DNA from: Nannochloropsis salina CCMP1776 | Taxonomy: Eukaryota; Sar; Eustigmatophyceae; Eustigmatales; Monodopsidaceae | Length of the DNA stretch: 64,000 bases | Assembly: GCA_004565275.1 (NCBI GenBank) | Contig: SDOX01000016.1 | Coordinates: forward strand, 673,989-737,988 | Reading direction: 5' to 3' | Part shown: positions 30,012-40,000 of the stretch, one piece after another | Layout: the number at the start of each line of letters is the position of its first letter | How positions within the stretch are numbered: position 1 is the first letter of the stretch | Notes under the pieces: model-generated | What the model was told of the DNA's origin: nothing | The model's database searches: none | The model's input: only the letters and a program-made list of their open reading frames with translations | Made by a program: the position numbers and the translations under genes

Positions 30012-30827
30012 CTAAAGCCTACCTGTCGCGGACAAGCTCGTCGGGTACCGGTCTCCGAGCAAGCGTTTCTCCACATCCTCAAGGGCAAACCGGTGGCGCG
30101 TCATGTCCAGCCCCCCTTTCGCGGCTGAGTACATCTTGGCACAATCGAAGCCCATGGGTGCGGGTGGTCCTCCTCCCAAGGGGACTCCCCCTGCCTGCAG
30201 GGCGTACACACGTGCCTCCTCCTTCATGGGGCCGTCGTCGAAGGAGAACAAACGTTGCAAATCCTTCACGCCGAAAGCGACCAGGAACATCCAGGATGTG
30301 GCGCTCACATAGGACGCGTCCAGGGTAGAGAGCTCAATGCCTCGTTGCAGCATGCCTTTGAAGGACGCGGTCAAGGCGAAGGGGATCTTGACAAGGACAA
30401 AGCCGGCAAAGAACATCTCAGAGAATTGCATCATGCCCATTTGGGTCATACCGAAGTAGGCCTGGCCCTTAACCATTTCCATCATGCCCATCGGGTTCGA
30501 CATAGGATTCACCGCCCCAGGCACTCCTTCCTCCGATAGGGCTCCTTCTTGTTCGTCCTTCCCGACGAACCATGCTTTCCGGGCCTCAAAGCCCGCTTTG
30601 TGAATATTGTTGCCATTGGCACGCAAGCGGTCAGCACGCGCCAGGACTTGTCTTCGTCGGAGATCATCGATCTCGGGGGGTTTATTGCCTTTGCCCAAAT
30701 GAGTCAGATACGCTCGTAGAAGATTTATGCACAGCACAAAGACCAAAATGGGGAGGACGCCCCAGTTTCGGATGGCCGGGTCGAGTAGAAGGTCGCGGCT
30801 GCTATGGCCGAGTGTTGGAGGCTGCAT
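30012..30827 (-). CDS. EMC3: ER membrane protein complex subunit 3
   Basis: EMC3 is the Oxa1/YidC-related core subunit of the ER membrane protein complex, which inserts tail-anchored and multipass proteins. It has 271 residues in one exon, close to the usual 260. The N-terminus is LLLDPAIRNWGVLPILVFV, the family hallmark, with TM1 at about residues 22-38. The coupling segment NPMSNPMGMMEMVKGQAYFG leads to TM2 (FFAGFVLVKIPFAL) and then FKGMLQRGIELSTLDASYVS ahead of TM3 (SWMFLVAFGVKDLQRLF). The methionine-rich cytosolic loop is typical. The start Met precedes the conserved LLDPAIR block by 13 residues. It is head-to-head with the rhodanese/methyltransferase gene and follows two ER elongase genes. 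Confidence 0.94.
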   Translation of the reverse strand: MQPPTLGHSSRDLLLDPAIRNWGVLPILVFVLCINLLRAYLTHLGKGNKPPEIDDLRRRQVLARADRLRANGNNIHKAGFEARKAWFVGKDEQEGALSEEGVPGAVNPMSNPMGMMEMVKGQAYFGMTQMGMMQFSEMFFAGFVLVKIPFALTASFKGMLQRGIELSTLDASYVSATSWMFLVAFGVKDLQRLFSFDDGPMKEEARVYALQAGGVPLGGGPPAPMGFDCAKMYSAAKGGLDMTRHRFALEDVEKRLLGDRYPTSLSATGRL

Positions 30828-31470: not shown

Positions 31471-34400
31471 ATGGCCCTTTTGTTGCGACACGTTATGGGT
31501 CGATTGGAAGGAGAAAGCGCAATGAATAAGGGAGAGGAGGTCAGGGGCGTTGGGATGAACCGCTCGCATCGAGACATAACTGCGAGGTTTAGAGCACGGC
31601 GGACTTCTTCATTGATCATCTCTTCTTTTATAAGCAGGAATACAACACTTGCCACCCTTCTGCGCGGTATAGGCTTCTGTTGGTTGGTAGGCTGCGTGCA
31701 AGCCTATTCCTCGAAACGAGCTCCCCCGCGCCCTGCATATCACGCCCAGCCATGGCCCCGACAGCGAAGTCAACCTCTCCCCCCACTGTTCCTGTCGTTC
31801 TCTCAGGGTGGTGTCTGGATGAGCTCGAACTCACACTCGTATCCGCGGGGCACCATGGGGAGTGGCAGCAGTGTCACAGGCATTGATAGCGCCCGCGCGG
31901 GGTATCATCGCACCTTCGAGGCAGCAGGCACGCCGGACATCGATCCCCTCGTGCGTAGCCAAGTCCGTGAGAAGCTGCTGAACAAACGTCGGGAGCGCTT
32001 CAGCAAAGAGAAGGGGGAGGCGGTCCTGGAGGAGCTGAGTGCCTCCCGCGTGCTGCCCGTGCGGGTCCTGGTGGATGTCGACCTCCGGCAGACCCTGCGT
32101 CTGACCCGGCGGGAGAAAAAGGCACGGCTGTTCATCCCTTTGGAATCCACGGCCAGTCTCAGCCTCTTCTTGGACCAGATCTACCAGTCTTTTCCCGTCG
32201 AGGGCATGCCGCACAACATCGTCGTGAGGGTGCGCAGGAAAGAGGGCAGCGGGGCGGTTGGGGAGGAGGACGGGGAGCATGGCCCCGGTCGCGACCACGC
32301 CGACACGGGCGCTCTGCACGTGACGTTGAAAAGCGACGAGGACCTTGCCCGCGCGCTGGCCGAGGCCCAAAAGGAAGGCATGTCACTCCAGGTCTACATC
32401 CGGACCGACAAATCCGCCGCCGCCGCGATGGTCCCCACCTACCTGAGGGATATGCCGGACCCGCGGGCCTCCCCCTCCATGCAAATGGTGTCCTTCTACA
32501 GGTTCTTTGCGCCGCCCTTGGAAAGTGAGGAGGCCTTAGACCTTCTGGCCAAGAAATTGCGGGCGGTCTGGGAGCCATTCGGAGCCCTCGGTCGTGTATA
32601 CGTAGCAAGCGAAGGCATCAACGCGCAGATGGCGGTCCCGGCCACGGTCTTCCCCCACTTTGCGCGGGCATGTGCTTCCCTGGAAGAGCTGACGGGCGTG
32701 TACCTGAACAGGGACCGGGAGGTAGATATGGGCCAGTACGCCCAGGAGCCGGCCTTCGACGCCCTGCACATTCGTATCCGGGAGCAGGTGGTGGCGGACG
32801 GGGGCTTGAGCGCGGAGAGGGAGTTTGACTGGGGCGATTGCGGCAGAGGCATGCACCCGGAGGAATGGCACGAGAAGGTGGACGACTCGAACGTGCTGGT
32901 CCTGGACTGTCGGAACGAGTTCGAGTCGGAAGTGGGGAGGTTCGTAACGGCGGAGCCCTTGAACACCAGCTTCTTCAGGGAGTCCTGGGATGTGTTAAAG
33001 ACCCGCCTTGCGGACGTGCCTAAGGACAAGCCCATCCTCACGTACTGCACGGGAGGCATTCGGTGCATCAAAGTGGGGGCTTACCTGAAACAAGAGCTGG
33101 GGTTCCAAAACGTGGCGCGCTTGGAGGGAGGCATCGTCTCCTATGCTCGGCACCTTCGGGGGACGCAAGACGCGGGTCAGGATACCCGGAGCCAGAGCGA
33201 GGCAAGGGTGGATGCCTCGATGGCGGGCATAATCCCCTCTAGTAAGTTCAAGGGCATCAATTACGTGTTTGACAACCGCTTGGGCGAGCGGATCACCGAG
33301 GACGTGCTCTCCCGCTGCGACCAGTGCGGCGTCCCTTCCGACAACTACGTAAATTGCGCGAACCCGAACTGCCACGTCCGCTTCCTTCAGTGTGAAAGCT
33401 GTGGACAGAGCCACCATGGATGTTGCAGCCGAGGATGTGTCCAAGCACGGCAGGAGATGGAGCTTCAATCCCCCAAAGGGGGCTATCCCGCCCCTCCCAA
33501 AAGCGTTTACCCCCCCGGTGTAGAGGAGGCCTTTCCCCTCTTACCCTTGTCGCAGGGCAGGCGCGAGTCAAAGAAGAGGGTGTGGCTGCAGCCGGGGCCT
33601 TTCCAGAACGTTCGATTGAACCGGGGGTTCGATGCGGCCATGGACGACTTCATGGCCGCAGAAACCGGCACTCTCGCTGAGTCCGAGCTCCTCCAACGCT
33701 TGACGCGAGAGACGGAGAGCGTCTTCCCTGGCGGCGCCCACATGCTCTCAGCACACAGTCAAGGGAGGCTATTGGCCGCCTTGACCAAGACGGTTGGCGC
33801 CCGCACGGTATTGGAAATCGGGACGTTCACTGGATACGCGACCTTGTGCCTGGCGGAGGGCGTGTCGATGGCTCGCGGCAGGGGCTTGGGTTCGGAAGCC
33901 GCAAGGGACAGTGGGAGAGCAGCCCTTCCCAAAGTCATGACCTGTGAAATCGACAGTCGAGCCGCTAAGATTGCTCAAAGGTATATTGACGAGGCGATAA
34001 GTAGTAAAGCTATTCCCGGCCTGGGTGTGGCAGATGTTAAGATTTATCAGGAACCTGCGATAGAGTTGCTGCAGCGGCTGGCGGCGTTGCCCCCAGGCAA
34101 GGAGCGACCTCAGTTTGACGTGATTTTTGTGGATGGAGATAAGAAACGTTATCAAGAGTACTACGATTTTATTTTGGAGCACAACCTCTTGGCTGGAGGA
34201 GGGATTATGATTGTGGATAACGTGTTATGGAAAGGATTGGTCCCTGAATTGGCTCGAAGGCTGGGGAAAGAGGGAGAAGATGCCGTCTTGCCGGTGGAAG
34301 AATTTGAAGAGCTGGGATTTACCAAGCGACAGATTCAACTGGCCAAGGTACTCCATGACTTCAACATGCATGTGCGGGCAGATATGCGGACAGAGCAGGC

Positions 34401-34497
34401 CTTCTTGCCGATTCGTGACGGTCTGCTCATAATTCGATGGAAAGGCTTTGAGCGGACAACGTTTGGTGAGGCTGAGCCTGCCAGAAGTGCGCAATAA
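31471..34497 (+). CDS. TrhO-like tRNA uridine hydroxylase fused to TrmR-like O-methyltransferase
   Basis: One uninterrupted frame of 1,008 residues holds two enzymes. Residues from about 339 match the TrhO (YceA/UPF0176) acylphosphatase-like domain (VSFYRFFAPP, VASEGINAQMAVP, FDALHIRIREQVV). A rhodanese domain follows (VLVLDCRNEFESEVGRF; catalytic Cys526 in YCTGGIRC), then the C-terminal Cys cluster C616-C656 (CDQCGVPSDNYVNCANPNC). From about residue 700 comes a class-I SAM O-methyltransferase of the COMT/YrrM (COG4122) family: LEIGTFTGYATLCLAEG at 781 and on, VIFVDGDKKRYQEYYDFIL, GGIMIVDNVLW. TrhO makes 5-hydroxyuridine at tRNA position 34, and TrmR (YrrM) methylates it to 5-methoxyuridine, so the fusion would catalyse both steps. 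Residues about 195-310 look like a beta-grasp/PB1-type domain. A hydrophobic N-terminal stretch (LLRGIGFCWLVGCVQA) suggests organelle import. The start may be Met1, Met18 or Met29. Neither tRNA activity nor location is proven. Confidence 0.85.
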   Translation: MALLLRHVMGRLEGESAMNKGEEVRGVGMNRSHRDITARFRARRTSSLIISSFISRNTTLATLLRGIGFCWLVGCVQAYSSKRAPPRPAYHAQPWPRQRSQPLPPLFLSFSQGGVWMSSNSHSYPRGTMGSGSSVTGIDSARAGYHRTFEAAGTPDIDPLVRSQVREKLLNKRRERFSKEKGEAVLEELSASRVLPVRVLVDVDLRQTLRLTRREKKARLFIPLESTASLSLFLDQIYQSFPVEGMPHNIVVRVRRKEGSGAVGEEDGEHGPGRDHADTGALHVTLKSDEDLARALAEAQKEGMSLQVYIRTDKSAAAAMVPTYLRDMPDPRASPSMQMVSFYRFFAPPLESEEALDLLAKKLRAVWEPFGALGRVYVASEGINAQMAVPATVFPHFARACASLEELTGVYLNRDREVDMGQYAQEPAFDALHIRIREQVVADGGLSAEREFDWGDCGRGMHPEEWHEKVDDSNVLVLDCRNEFESEVGRFVTAEPLNTSFFRESWDVLKTRLADVPKDKPILTYCTGGIRCIKVGAYLKQELGFQNVARLEGGIVSYARHLRGTQDAGQDTRSQSEARVDASMAGIIPSSKFKGINYVFDNRLGERITEDVLSRCDQCGVPSDNYVNCANPNCHVRFLQCESCGQSHHGCCSRGCVQARQEMELQSPKGGYPAPPKSVYPPGVEEAFPLLPLSQGRRESKKRVWLQPGPFQNVRLNRGFDAAMDDFMAAETGTLAESELLQRLTRETESVFPGGAHMLSAHSQGRLLAALTKTVGARTVLEIGTFTGYATLCLAEGVSMARGRGLGSEAARDSGRAALPKVMTCEIDSRAAKIAQRYIDEAISSKAIPGLGVADVKIYQEPAIELLQRLAALPPGKERPQFDVIFVDGDKKRYQEYYDFILEHNLLAGGGIMIVDNVLWKGLVPELARRLGKEGEDAVLPVEEFEELGFTKRQIQLAKVLHDFNMHVRADMRTEQAFLPIRDGLLIIRWKGFERTTFGEAEPARSAQ

Positions 34498-34914
34498 TTC
34501 ATGCTTGCTGTGCTATCAGTGGTACATAAGATGACAAAAAAGAACCAAAAGCACCCATTTCGCATGCTTTACAGGCAAACGCAATGTCTTCGCGATAACC
34601 TCCCCCTCCCCCCCCCTTTTTGGTAATTGTTCTTCAGATGCGATTTGAATGCCGCTGTGGAGTATAGACCGTAAAGAAATAGTAATGCACATGTGATTAA
34701 AGATGAAACTTCCCTCTTTCATCGCTCTTATGTGGTTTGATTTCTGTCTTTCCACCGACGTCTCGCCATACCTTCTGTGTCTATTGTTGAAGTTGTTTCC
34801 AGTTGTACGTATGTTCTTACTTGAGGCAGGGAACGCTTATCTGTTGCCAATAGGAAAAAAACACAAGAATAATTATAAGCTTTATTGCATATCTACAGCC
34901 CAATAAAGCCGAGA
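34498..34914. other. intergenic region
   Basis: 417 bases between two plus-strand genes, mostly AT-rich, with a C7 run near 34610. No gene is seen. Confidence 0.5.
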
Positions 34915-36765
34915 ATGCTCCTACATGTCGGCTTCAGCAGCCTCCCAAAATGCCGCAAACTACTCCTACTCCTCTTCCTTTTCTTCGTCACATGCTTGAC
35001 CCCCACTTTACGGGTATCTGGGTTTGCTGCCCCAAGCCCTGTATCCCACATCGATCGTTTCAAACGTCTTCAAAATCAGTTCGATTTGCGGGGCACAGCT
35101 TTGGCCAGCAACGATGGCAGCAAAGAAGTGACCCTGTCTCCGAGAGAGGCTTATTTCCTAGGGCAAGCGTTTGCGACATGGATCATCCGGGAGCTGCCTC
35201 CCCAGTCTTCAGCCTCCACTTCCGCGGAGACGCTCCCGATAACCATTGCCGCAGGCCGAGACAGCCGATTGACGGGGCCCGCCCTTTCCTACAGTTTTTT
35301 GGAAGGCGTGGAGACCGTGTGTGGTTCTGCGGCGCCGGTGGATCTGGGCCTCTGCTCCACCCCAGCCACCTTCCATGCATGCCTCGACCCGCCGTTGGGG
35401 CTTGGCGTCTCTGCCTCCGTCATGGTAACCGCTTCACACCTTCCGATGGACCGAAACGGCTTCAAAATGTTCTCACGTCAGGGGGAAGGCGGCCTAACGG
35501 AGGCTGATGTGTCGGACGTCGTTGCGCTGGCTGCCGAGATTTTTCAGGACCAGCACGGGGCCTACCCAAACCTGGACATTCCCACCACGCGCCCACACCC
35601 GCATTGGCTAAAGGCACACCATTTCCTGCAGGACGTGTACGGGGAGCACTTGTCACAGCTGATCCGAAATTGCGCTGCCAAGGGCCAGAATTTTGAAAAG
35701 CCGTTGGAAGGCATGCGGGTGGTGCTGAACCCCGTCAACGGTGCGGGAGGATTTTTCGTTCACGTCTTGGAAGCCTGCGGAGCGGACACACGAGGGAGCT
35801 TCAACCTGGCTCCAGACGGCCACTTTCCCCACGAACCTCCCAACCCGGAGGACCCCGCCACCATGGGGGCTACGGTGCAGGCTGTGGCGGCCGCGGGGGC
35901 CGACCTGGGCGTCATCCTCGACCCGGACTGCGACCGAGTGGGGTTGGTAAGCGGGGTGGGGAAAGCTGCCGGGGGCGACCGCGCGCCCATGGCCTTGAAT
36001 CGGAACCGTCTGATCGCGATGGCTGCGGCCGTGGTGCTCCGAGATCATCCGGGCAGCACGATCGTCACCGACTCGGTGACAAGCGAGGGCCTCTCTCGCT
36101 TTATCGCCAAACGGGGGGGGAAGCATTTACGGTACCAAAAAGGGTATAGGAATGTGATTGAGAAAGGCGAGTCCCTCCCAGACTGCTGGCTTGCCATGGA
36201 GTGCAGTGGCCATGCTGCCTTCCGTGAGAATCGATTTTTAGATGACGGAGCCTTCTTGGCCGTTAAATTGATCGGAGAAATGGCATCGCCCGTGTCTGCC
36301 TTGACAGGAGGGAAGGACATCGCTGTCTTCACACCCTCAGCGGGCTTCGAAGGCGCCAATTTGCTAGCACTGATTGCGGATCTGGACGAGCCGGTCGAAT
36401 ACGTAGAAATTAGATTGCCGGTTCAAAGAGGCCGCGACCGAGAAGTTGCGATCGAACAAGTGTTGAAAGCCTTTGAATGGGTAGTGAGTGTCACGTCGTG
36501 GTGGAAAATGGAAAAGTATAATTATGAAGGCTTGCGGGCGAAGGTGCAGGAGGACGGAGGACGGAAGGCTGGCTGGCTTCATTTCCGGGCCTCCGTGCAC
36601 GACCCGGTAATATCCTTGACCTGCGAGAGTGAGGTGGAGGGAGGTGTAGCGGCGATGTTGGGAACATTGATAGATTGCGGCATGCCGGATGCTACGTCTG
36701 ATACGGTGGATTGGGCCAGTGCGGTGCAGTATTTACGCGGCAGGCGCGGGCCCCGTAGCTTGTAA
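34915..36765 (+). CDS. plastid-type phosphoglucomutase/phosphomannomutase family protein
   Basis: Alpha-D-phosphohexomutase that interconverts hexose 1- and 6-phosphates (ManB/COG1109 branch), 616 residues in one exon. The presequence MLLHVGFSSLPKCRKLLLLL and on is a signal peptide. It is followed by RVSG-FAAPSP, the heterokont plastid motif with Phe after the cleavage point, so plastid import is inferred. The enzyme then shows FDLRGTAL, AAGRDSRLTGPAL, the phosphoserine loop TASHLP (Ser174), the metal loop DPDCDR (residues 336-341), the sugar-binding loop around MECSGHAAF, and a C-terminal phosphate-binding domain. Plant plastids have a related mutase-like protein. Substrate choice (glucose or mannose) cannot be decided. 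The start ATG 34915 is the only Met that gives the signal peptide. Confidence 0.87.
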   Translation: MLLHVGFSSLPKCRKLLLLLFLFFVTCLTPTLRVSGFAAPSPVSHIDRFKRLQNQFDLRGTALASNDGSKEVTLSPREAYFLGQAFATWIIRELPPQSSASTSAETLPITIAAGRDSRLTGPALSYSFLEGVETVCGSAAPVDLGLCSTPATFHACLDPPLGLGVSASVMVTASHLPMDRNGFKMFSRQGEGGLTEADVSDVVALAAEIFQDQHGAYPNLDIPTTRPHPHWLKAHHFLQDVYGEHLSQLIRNCAAKGQNFEKPLEGMRVVLNPVNGAGGFFVHVLEACGADTRGSFNLAPDGHFPHEPPNPEDPATMGATVQAVAAAGADLGVILDPDCDRVGLVSGVGKAAGGDRAPMALNRNRLIAMAAAVVLRDHPGSTIVTDSVTSEGLSRFIAKRGGKHLRYQKGYRNVIEKGESLPDCWLAMECSGHAAFRENRFLDDGAFLAVKLIGEMASPVSALTGGKDIAVFTPSAGFEGANLLALIADLDEPVEYVEIRLPVQRGRDREVAIEQVLKAFEWVVSVTSWWKMEKYNYEGLRAKVQEDGGRKAGWLHFRASVHDPVISLTCESEVEGGVAAMLGTLIDCGMPDATSDTVDWASAVQYLRGRRGPRSL

Positions 36766-37061: not shown

Positions 37062-40000
37062 ATGGAAAGCAAAGAACAAGGCGAGGCTTCCGTTTCTGCT
37101 GTGTTCCCCGTCAATGAGACACCATCAGCAGCGTCCTCGACCTCGTCAGCGTCGGCGCCTCCGGCTACCCCCTCTACGACACATGCTACTCTCGTAGGCG
37201 CAGAGGGAGTGCCACAGAATGGTCACATCAACATGCATAATGATGAGCAGGTTGATAATGTCCTTGATCGCCTTGGTGTCCGGCATGTGGACGAAGAAGT
37301 GATGGCGAGCGAAGTCATACAGAAGGCGCAAGCACGGTGGGCGGCTGTCGCTGCTGCAAAGCGGGCTAGAAGGCCACAAACACCACTTCCGCCTCTTAAT
37401 GAACCTGCACATGCTCTTACCACAAGCGACAGTGGCGAGTGTGATACCGGAGTCCTGCCTCCGTCGGGCGATGGTCAGAAAATGGAGGCAGGAGGCGGTT
37501 TGCCAAAGGAGGAGTCGGACGGGGGGGGGACCGATGTCGAAGGCGAAGAGAAAATTCTGCTGCAGAAGAAATGCAACGCAAAGCGGAGAAGAAGAGCTGT
37601 CAGCTCAATGCTTGGTGAATCGAATGAAGTCCGTTTCGGGGATCTGACTCCGTTTGAGGAACAGCGGCTGGCAGCAGAGCAGAAGGCAGATCGAGCCGAA
37701 GGAGGAGTGGCCGCTCGTGGACGCGCTGGAGTGAAAGACATTGGAAAAGATATGGATAGGCATACGAAGAAGAAGAAGTTCAAAAAGCGGTCCTTGGAGG
37801 GGGCGGAGACACCGTCGCACATGGTGAGAAGGAAGAAAACGGAGGCGCCGGAGGGGTCACAAGAGCTAGGAACGAAGAAAGAGGGAGACACGAAGCACGC
37901 AGGCATCAAGAAGGAGGGGGAAGAGAAGGGACAGGGAGAAAAGGAGCACGCTATGGCATCGGATGCGGCGGCTTTTCCTACCGCAGTACCTCCGAGAAAG
38001 GTCGAGCGGGGGGAGCAGGCGGTGGAGGGAGTGCGCGTGAAGGAGGAGGAGGGACAGCAGCGTTGTCCAGCCCCTGACGTCGGGGGGGGGAGGAGGCGAG
38101 GGTCGACAGGATTGGAGGAGATGCTAGGCTCTCAGAATTCACTGCCTTGTCCCGTGTGCGGACGCCACGTGCCCGTGAAGGACACAAGCTACCCGGATGC
38201 CGACCTGTCCCGGCACATGGACCGTTGCACACGGGGGTCTCGGCCAGGCAAGGCGTTGAAAGGAGGGCCTGGAGAGGGAGGGGGCACGATCGGCACGGGG
38301 GATACTGTGAAAGAAGGGATGGATTTTTTGGACGACGAGTCCTCGGGAGAGGAGCAGGGAGGGGAGGGAATCAAGTCAGAGGGCGAGGGGCAGGAGAGCG
38401 CTTCCCCCCCCCCTCGTGGGCAGACGGGAGGGAATGATTGGAGGGTGAAAACAGAAGAAGCAGCGGCGATGACAGGGACGCAGAGGAGGCAAGGACTTCT
38501 AATGGTGGACGATTTCTTGGAGGAGAACTACCGCAGACGGCTTGAGGAGTACCGCGTCGGGCTCGGGGCCTTGGGGTCCCCGGGCGAGGCGACTGCCTTG
38601 GACGGAGGCGAAGACGAGGAGGAGGTGGAGGACGAGGAGGTGGCTCCCGCAAGCCTTTCTGGGGGTCAGGCCGAGGGGGAGCTGACCTCACCCCCACGTC
38701 CCGGGTCTCGGGGGGCGCAGGCCACTGCCCGACGGGAGGGACTGGGCGAGAACGAGGTCGCGGGGCCACTGGCGCTCCCTGGGGGCTTCGTCCTCCCCGC
38801 CTCCATCAACCGGAAGCTCTATTGGTACCAGCGGACGGGAGTGCGATGGCTGTGGGAGCTCTATCGACAGGGCGCGGGCGGCATTCTGGGGGACGAGATG
38901 GGGCTTGGCAAGACCGTCCAAGTGAGCGCCTTCCTGGGAGGATTGCACCGGTCGGGGCGGTTGGAGGGCGGGGCCCTGGTCGTCGCGCCGGCTACCCTCA
39001 TGTCCCAGTGGGTCGCGGAGCTCTTCCTCTGGGCACCGCGCCTGCGCGTGGTGGTCTTGCATCGGTCCGCCGCCGCCTTTGCCGCCCAGCCGGGTCCCAA
39101 GGTCTCCCGATTTGTCCGCCGGGTCCTCGGCATGGGCCGGGGGAGGGCTGGGCTCGTCTGTCTCTCCACGTACGAGAGCTTGAAGCTCCTGCGGAAGGAG
39201 CTGCTGAACCACCCGTGGGCCTACGTAGCCCTGGACGAGGGTCAGAAGATTCGGAATCCTGACGCGGAGGTAGGTTTTCCCAAGGGGTGTGTGGTCTTCG
39301 AACCGATTGGACGGCACGCGCGTTGCTTTGCGTTTGCCGGTGGGAAGACCTGCGTGGGGCCAGGACTCCCTCCCGCGCTTTTTCTTATGCCTCCTGACCC
39401 CAACCCCCCCCGCCCCCTTTACAGGTCACCATCTGTGCCAAGCAGCTCCCCACCATCCATCGCCTCATCCTCTCGGGCACACCCATCCAGAACAACCTCC
39501 GGGAGCTCTGGTCCCTCTTTGATTTCTGCTTCCCGGGCCGGCTGGGCACGCTGCCAGCCTTCGAGACGGAGCTCGCCACCCCCATTCGCTTGGGCGGTTA
39601 CAGCAATGCCACCCCCACCCAGGCCCAGTGTGCCTACCGGTGCGCTCTCGTCCTTCGGGACCTGGTGCACCCCTACCTGCTGCGTCGCATGAAGAAAGAC
39701 ATCATGACCATCCTGCCCCTCCCCAAGAAGACCGAGCAGGTGCTCTTCTGCAAGCTCACGCCCCGGCAGCGGGCCTTGTATCGGGCGGTGATATCCTCGC
39801 CGGAGATCCGTCTGATCGTGGAGGGGAAGGCGTCGCATTTTCGCGCCATCACCATCCTCAGGAAGATCTGCAACCACGCCGACCTGGTGGCGGGCCCGGA
39901 CGAGGAGGGGACGGAACTGATGGCCCGGCTCGTGGCAGGCGGGGGTTGGGCGGACGAGTGGAGAGGGGGGGAAGAGGAGGAGGAGGAGGAGGACGAGGCG

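Follow-up and report, generated by a model that had tools for sequence, protein, structure and literature searches.

A conserved fusion of TrhO with an O-methyltransferase in Nannochloropsis salina and other algae: a probable two-step enzyme for the organellar wobble uridine

In identifying YceA as TrhO, Sakai et al. (2019; PMC6599085) drew, among other clues, on fusions of yceA with trmR. These genes, from Phytophthora sojae and P. ramorum as well as from Phaeodactylum tricornutum, are among the closest described systems to the gene analysed here; the passage concerned terms the carriers 'bacterial species'. From the spread of TrhO homologues the same paper proposed that modifications of the 5-oxyuridine (xo5U) type occur in eukaryotes (PMC6599085). 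We analysed a window of 64,000 nucleotides from the eustigmatophyte Nannochloropsis salina CCMP1776 (contig SDOX01000016.1, positions 673,989 to 737,988), in which one gene combines a TrhO module and a class-I O-methyltransferase, as the published fusions do. The original prediction for this locus knew of no described fusion of this kind, an assumption overtaken by the literature, since such fusions have been in print since 2019 (PMC6599085). The gene is a member of a conserved family of a kind already in print. New here are a PB1-fold domain, an enlarged insertion loop with a basic end, a brown-algal methyltransferase tail without motifs and the spread of the family to red algae.

We favour, at a probability of about 0.7, the reading that the fusion is a nucleus-encoded, organelle-directed enzyme modifying the wobble uridine in two steps. 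The TrhO half with its Cys526 loop would hydroxylate U34 of NYN-box tRNAs to 5-hydroxyuridine (ho5U) using O2. The C-terminal O-methyltransferase, dependent on metal and S-adenosylmethionine (SAM), would turn ho5U34 into 5-methoxyuridine (mo5U34), which would let a single U34 tRNA read an entire codon box. The site would be an organelle, more likely the plastid, and the probable role of the PB1-fold domain is in oligomerisation or in docking a partner. The fusion is conserved and very probably tRNA-directed. Being kept in red algae and in algae with red plastids, it predicts mo5U in algal organelles, and thereby where to look, for which product and with which mutants. In the literature searched we came across no detection of mo5U in the organelles of an alga; mo5U is reported in Synechocystis in a passage of PMC12860351, and part of a coconut survey lists ho5U and assigns a TrhO homologue to the chloroplast (PMC10298058).

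The 1,008-codon frame predicted originally, with a full TrhO module including Cys526 (the C of CTGGIR) and a full methyltransferase, was borne out by the open reading frame (ORF) and by Pfam: all four domains of the protein (UPF0176_N, Rhodanese, Rhodanese_C and Methyltransf_3) exceed their cut-offs. LEIGTFTGYA and FVDGDKKRYQ were likewise found in the methyltransferase half. The predicted list of domains stood as far as it went, and had overlooked a PB1-like folded region at residues ~194-312 and a signal-peptide-like leader. Candidate start codons are Met1, Met18 and Met29; the closest relative, of 991 amino acids and 97% identical, begins at the Met18 position. Since this relative and five others at 66-76% identity all span residues 330-1000, and since Methyltransf_3 is present in 118 of the best 120 relatives listed (precomputed domains), the frame and the joint between the two modules are confirmed as real, far beyond chance. 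That two genes or an overlooked intron were read as one is hardly credible in view of the single stop-free frame and of a joint repeated in many independent sequences, including transcriptome-derived MMETSP proteins.

The search with residues 330-1000 returned 149 proteins; like the second search, it scored only the ~8,000 candidates sharing most words. Sources named among the listed matches were Vitrella, the ochrophytes Phaeothamnion, Ochromonadaceae and Scytosiphon, the diatoms Thalassiosira, Cylindrotheca, Nitzschia and Seminavis, and one red alga, Cyanidiococcus. When the Cyanidiococcus protein served as query, 162 proteins were found, the best 120 of which were listed; this search added Agarophyton, Gracilaria, Gracilariopsis, a partial Ectocarpus protein and a transcriptome labelled 'Porphyri...'. 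Across proteomes, where the original prediction had proposed to look for this domain pair, the fusion occurs in red algae, in Vitrella and among the ochrophyte algae.

The TrhO half has the TrhO/UPF0176 domain order UPF0176_N, Rhodanese, Rhodanese_C, each above its Pfam cut-off. Residue conservation was read from an alignment of 81 chosen proteins. Four residues of the CTGGIR loop, namely its C, its T, the second of its Gs and its R, are reported as essential in E. coli TrhO (PMC6599085), and the matching C526, T527, G529 and R531 are invariant in 81/81 rows. Each of the eight Rhodanese_C cysteines is kept in 80/81 rows. E. coli TrhO also requires the basic strand residues K112 and R114; R435 and R437, which are R or K in all 81 rows and opposite which the aligned 9j5o chain has R121 and K123, would be their counterparts. 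A protein without wobble hydroxylation, in which the rhodanese half works as a sulfurtransferase, appears very unlikely. NCBIfam models of sulfurtransferases were matched more weakly, far under their cut-offs, and some relatives bear the name 'predicted sulfurtransferase'.

The methyltransferase half has the PF01596 fold, the SAM motif and a D, D, N metal site, the residues of which we take to bind metal as in the superfamily. Conservation is high throughout: G788 is found in 81 of the 81 rows, each of E782, D888, K891 and D916 in 79, and N917 in 78. D890 stands in 76 rows, its position being N in four others and E in one. In P0108, P0259 and P0268 this N stands in an otherwise intact methyltransferase; the only other N belongs to the degenerate P0114. 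Named standalone bacterial matches listed were all from Bacteroidota, at ~33-35% identity, among the minority of rows naming an organism. A bacterial genome scan with the methyltransferase reached five loci at 31-33% identity, three of them in Bacteroidota and two in Pseudomonadota. We built a tree of 67 chosen rows, 33 of them fusions, without a usable root. Enzymes of Bacteroidota and of other bacteria form a group with the caffeoyl-CoA enzymes that excludes all 33 fusions (support 99/99, unrooted). The approximately unbiased (AU) test did not reject one clade of fusions (p 0.113), nor the fusions and four TrmR references as one side (p 0.237). It did reject a side uniting the fusions with the plant caffeoyl-CoA O-methyltransferase (CCoAOMT) references (p 0.0003). 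Of the placements that the original prediction had set against each other, with TrmR or with catechol O-methyltransferase (COMT) and CCoAOMT, the one with CCoAOMT is rejected; membership in the TrmR reference group was not obtained, as the fusions fall outside it in the unrooted tree. In sum, the methyltransferase appears to form its own subfamily, and the tests neither support nor reject a tie to TrmR.

A role like that of TrmR is favoured indirectly by two lines of evidence. The first is co-occurrence with TrhO in 118 Bacteroidota genomes, including one Pedobacter whose nearest-relative methyltransferase served as query (E up to 1e-10). TrhO was found in 67 of the 118 genomes, and the methyltransferase in 62/67 of these vs 11/51 others, kinship uncorrected. 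Because TrhO is missing from all 27 genomes without a strong COX1 match (0/27), oxygen confounds this raw count. Within the 91 genomes with a strong COX1 match the methyltransferase accompanies TrhO in 62/67 genomes vs 11/24 without TrhO (Fisher p 5e-6, kinship uncorrected). At stricter cut-offs the same set gives 46/67 vs 7/24 (1e-25, p 0.001) and 44/67 vs 2/24 (1e-33).

The second line is the long, basic-ended insertion loop between DNVLW and FN. Its length in fusions has a median of 44 residues and a range of 34-90 (n=150; 11 not measurable), compared with a median of 20 in standalone bacterial enzymes (n=81; 2 not measurable) and 27 residues in B. subtilis TrmR. The last 17 loop residues carry a median net charge of +6 in fusions (at least +2 in 133/150, 0 or below in 8) and -1 in the standalone bacterial enzymes (at least +2 in 0/81); the TrmR references have +3, +2 and +4. 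Charge in the remaining methyltransferase domain is alike, at -3.6 per 100 residues in fusions vs -3.7 in the bacterial enzymes.

Several results weigh against the two-step reading. The TrhO half scores 154.9 bits against the 170-bit cut-off of NCBIfam NF001133, which is a naming threshold and no mechanistic feature; the red-algal relative P0088 clears it with 189.9 bits. The best PDB sequence match of the methyltransferase is Synechocystis 3cbg (E 3e-20), cyanobacterial and caffeoyl-CoA-type enzymes being far ahead of TrmR, and the B. subtilis TrmR matches are poor (5zw3, E 2.9e-5; 8k1f, E 5.5e-4). In the unrooted tree the TrmR references and an Anaplasma enzyme are parted from the fusions with 99/99 support and a stem of 1.24. 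The loop end of the window protein is mild (+2), that of the close relative P0007 is 0, and plant caffeoyl-CoA enzymes carry +2 and +3, so that positive charge at this place does not single out TrmR. The Bacteroidota statistics ignore kinship, and TrhO occurs in only 2/5 genomes reached by the methyltransferase scan, the Roseivirga genome being without it. Finally, the window protein is outside the 53 positives of the crude leader heuristic described below because its hydrophobic core is too distant from the first Met.

Some of these points would suit a protein whose TrhO half makes ho5U34 while the methyltransferase half acts on a catechol-like small molecule or another RNA position, which we regard as rather improbable. 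The best PDB matches of that half are enzymes without known tRNA action, and the basic loop end is common to plant caffeoyl-CoA enzymes. Rv0187 is described in a passage of PMC6543040 as methylating many small substrates and the free ho5U nucleoside, with no significant activity on ho5U-tRNA. A small-molecule substrate is opposed by the rejection of the caffeoyl-CoA grouping (p 0.0003) and by an insertion loop that exceeds, in length and in basic charge, the one of the nearest standalone bacterial enzymes, and it makes the long-kept joint with a tRNA enzyme hard to explain.

The genome is an assembly of 103 contigs and 26.5 Mb. No second place with PF01596 or PF17773 was found in these contigs; each is single and both are in the fusion gene. 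The lack of a standalone copy of either half in the assembly speaks against the unlikely case that the fusion acts on U34 with another end product, or that the halves serve different tRNAs and the fusion amounts to co-expression. The same is true of the step from ho5U to mo5U, known chemistry of TrmR, the characterised tRNA enzyme of the superfamily (PMC6599085). E. coli TrhO binds tRNA Ala1, not tRNA Leu3 (PMC6599085), a selectivity by which the two halves could differ in tRNA range, and a U32-family (TrhP-like) gene in the genome could supply ho5U. The one U32-family place in the genome (L003, G000:C2:357725-358234, one open frame) is nearest TrhP, yet well below the NCBIfam cut-off at 165 of 534 bits. 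As TrhP was confined to bacteria in a published survey (PMC6599085), the class of this locus (TrhP-like, RlhA-like or other) is of interest.

On the mitochondrial contig C102 we found 26 tRNA genes, in which Ala, Pro, Val, Ser(UCN) and Leu(CUN) are each served by a single tRNA with U34; tRNA Thr was not found on this contig. The plastid genome seems absent from the assembly. C102 (41,992 bases; loci L006-L013) has one COX1 match split over both contig ends, like an opened circle, and a second, complete one at 38303-39643, ~2 kb off, so COX1 may be duplicated. At the N-terminus of the fusion protein the leader core ends in VQA before Y79, presumably the spot where ochrophyte plastid proteins bear A-F/Y. 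At the equivalent place P0002 (the 97% relative) has VQA-Y and the related P0004 VRA-F. A crude leader rule, a hydrophobic core within the first 75 residues optionally followed by A/G-F/Y/W, found the core in 53 of 157 fusions and the additional motif in 16, compared with 25 and 5 for shuffled N-termini and 1 and 0 for internal stretches. Plastid targeting thus looks plausible for part of the family, and the organellar location given by the original prediction is judged plausible as well. Residues ~194-312 have a PB1 fold, an unexpected add-on for a tRNA-modifying enzyme; the Pfam PF00564 cut-off was not reached (21.0 bits vs 23.6), 5/40 rows matching with E up to 1.

Table 1. Features of the fusion gene and its neighbours (positions in the window).
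Feature	Positions	Strand	Basis or remark
Whole fusion ORF	31471..34497	+	One ATG-to-stop frame, 1,008 aa
Signal-peptide-like hydrophobic core ending LVGCVQA	31651..31704	+	Followed by Y79 SSKRAPPRP
PB1-fold domain, residues ~194-312	32050..32406	+	Weak in sequence
UPF0176_N (acylphosphatase-like) of TrhO	32482..32790	+	Pfam, residues 338-440
Rhodanese domain of TrhO	32857..33150	+	Pfam, residues 463-560
CTGGIR active-site loop, Cys526-Arg531	33046..33063	+	Sequence and 81-row alignment
Rhodanese_C, eight conserved Cys	33250..33438	+	Pfam, residues 594-656
Class-I O-methyltransferase, residues ~700-992	33568..34446	+	Pfam core Methyltransf_3 737-989, E 6e-30
Enlarged 45-residue insertion loop, DNVLW to FN	34231..34365	+	Last 17 residues net +2
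EMC3/TMCO1-like membrane protein	30012-30827	-	Divergent, upstream of the fusion gene
Phosphoglucomutase/phosphomannomutase	34885-36765	+	Three Pfam domains; directly downstream, same strand; leader reads ...VSGFAAPSP

The leader of the downstream phosphoglucomutase/phosphomannomutase resembles what we take to be an ochrophyte plastid-targeting motif.

In the brown alga Scytosiphon (P0116) and in P0114 the C-terminal tails align and the TrhO loop is kept, with the SAM and metal motifs gone. P0028, which also departs from the motifs, looks shortened, P0279 ends as P0116 does, and the partial Ectocarpus protein P0278, without a methyltransferase match, has a similar tail; beside these listed proteins there are thirteen-hundred-odd metagenome relatives. 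Since the tails are without SAM and metal motifs, the brown-algal methyltransferase looks dead or repurposed, on the basis of one named complete and one partial protein. With its methyltransferase half degraded in this way, such an alga offers a natural control. A tentative history, which we put forward as no better than possible, is that the PB1-TrhO-methyltransferase protein was born in the red-algal line, spread with red plastids and gives organelles mo5U34. Its methyltransferase, a subfamily distinct from Bacilli TrmR, would have gained a long basic loop gripping tRNA, and brown algae would have lost methyl transfer and kept only ho5U. If this were true, one family would record both the gain and the partial loss of an organellar wobble modification.

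Compared by their published description, the yceA-trmR fusions also hold TrhO and a TrmR-type methyltransferase in one gene; they served as a comparative-genomics clue, and an activity or location of the fusion, the PB1-fold domain and the red-algal spread are absent from the passages of PMC6599085 that concern them. TrhO of bacteria, as in E. coli YceA or the B. subtilis structure 9j5o, is standalone, whereas the window protein is below the NCBIfam cut-off and has extra N- and C-terminal parts. TrmR (B. subtilis YrrM; 5zw3, tRNA-bound 5zw4) has little sequence similarity to the fusions, with a long branch between them. Caffeoyl-CoA/COMT-like enzymes (1sui, 5kva, 4pyi) have the superfamily and the metal chemistry in common with the fusions, and the CCoAOMT loop is likewise basic-ended, although the CCoAOMT grouping is rejected. 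The closest named bacterial relatives among the scored candidates are the O-methyltransferases of the Bacteroidota Pedobacter, Spirosoma and Roseivirga (L014, L015, L017; 31-36% identity), which differ from the fusions in being standalone and in having a short loop with an end that is not basic, and which co-occur with TrhO within their phylum.
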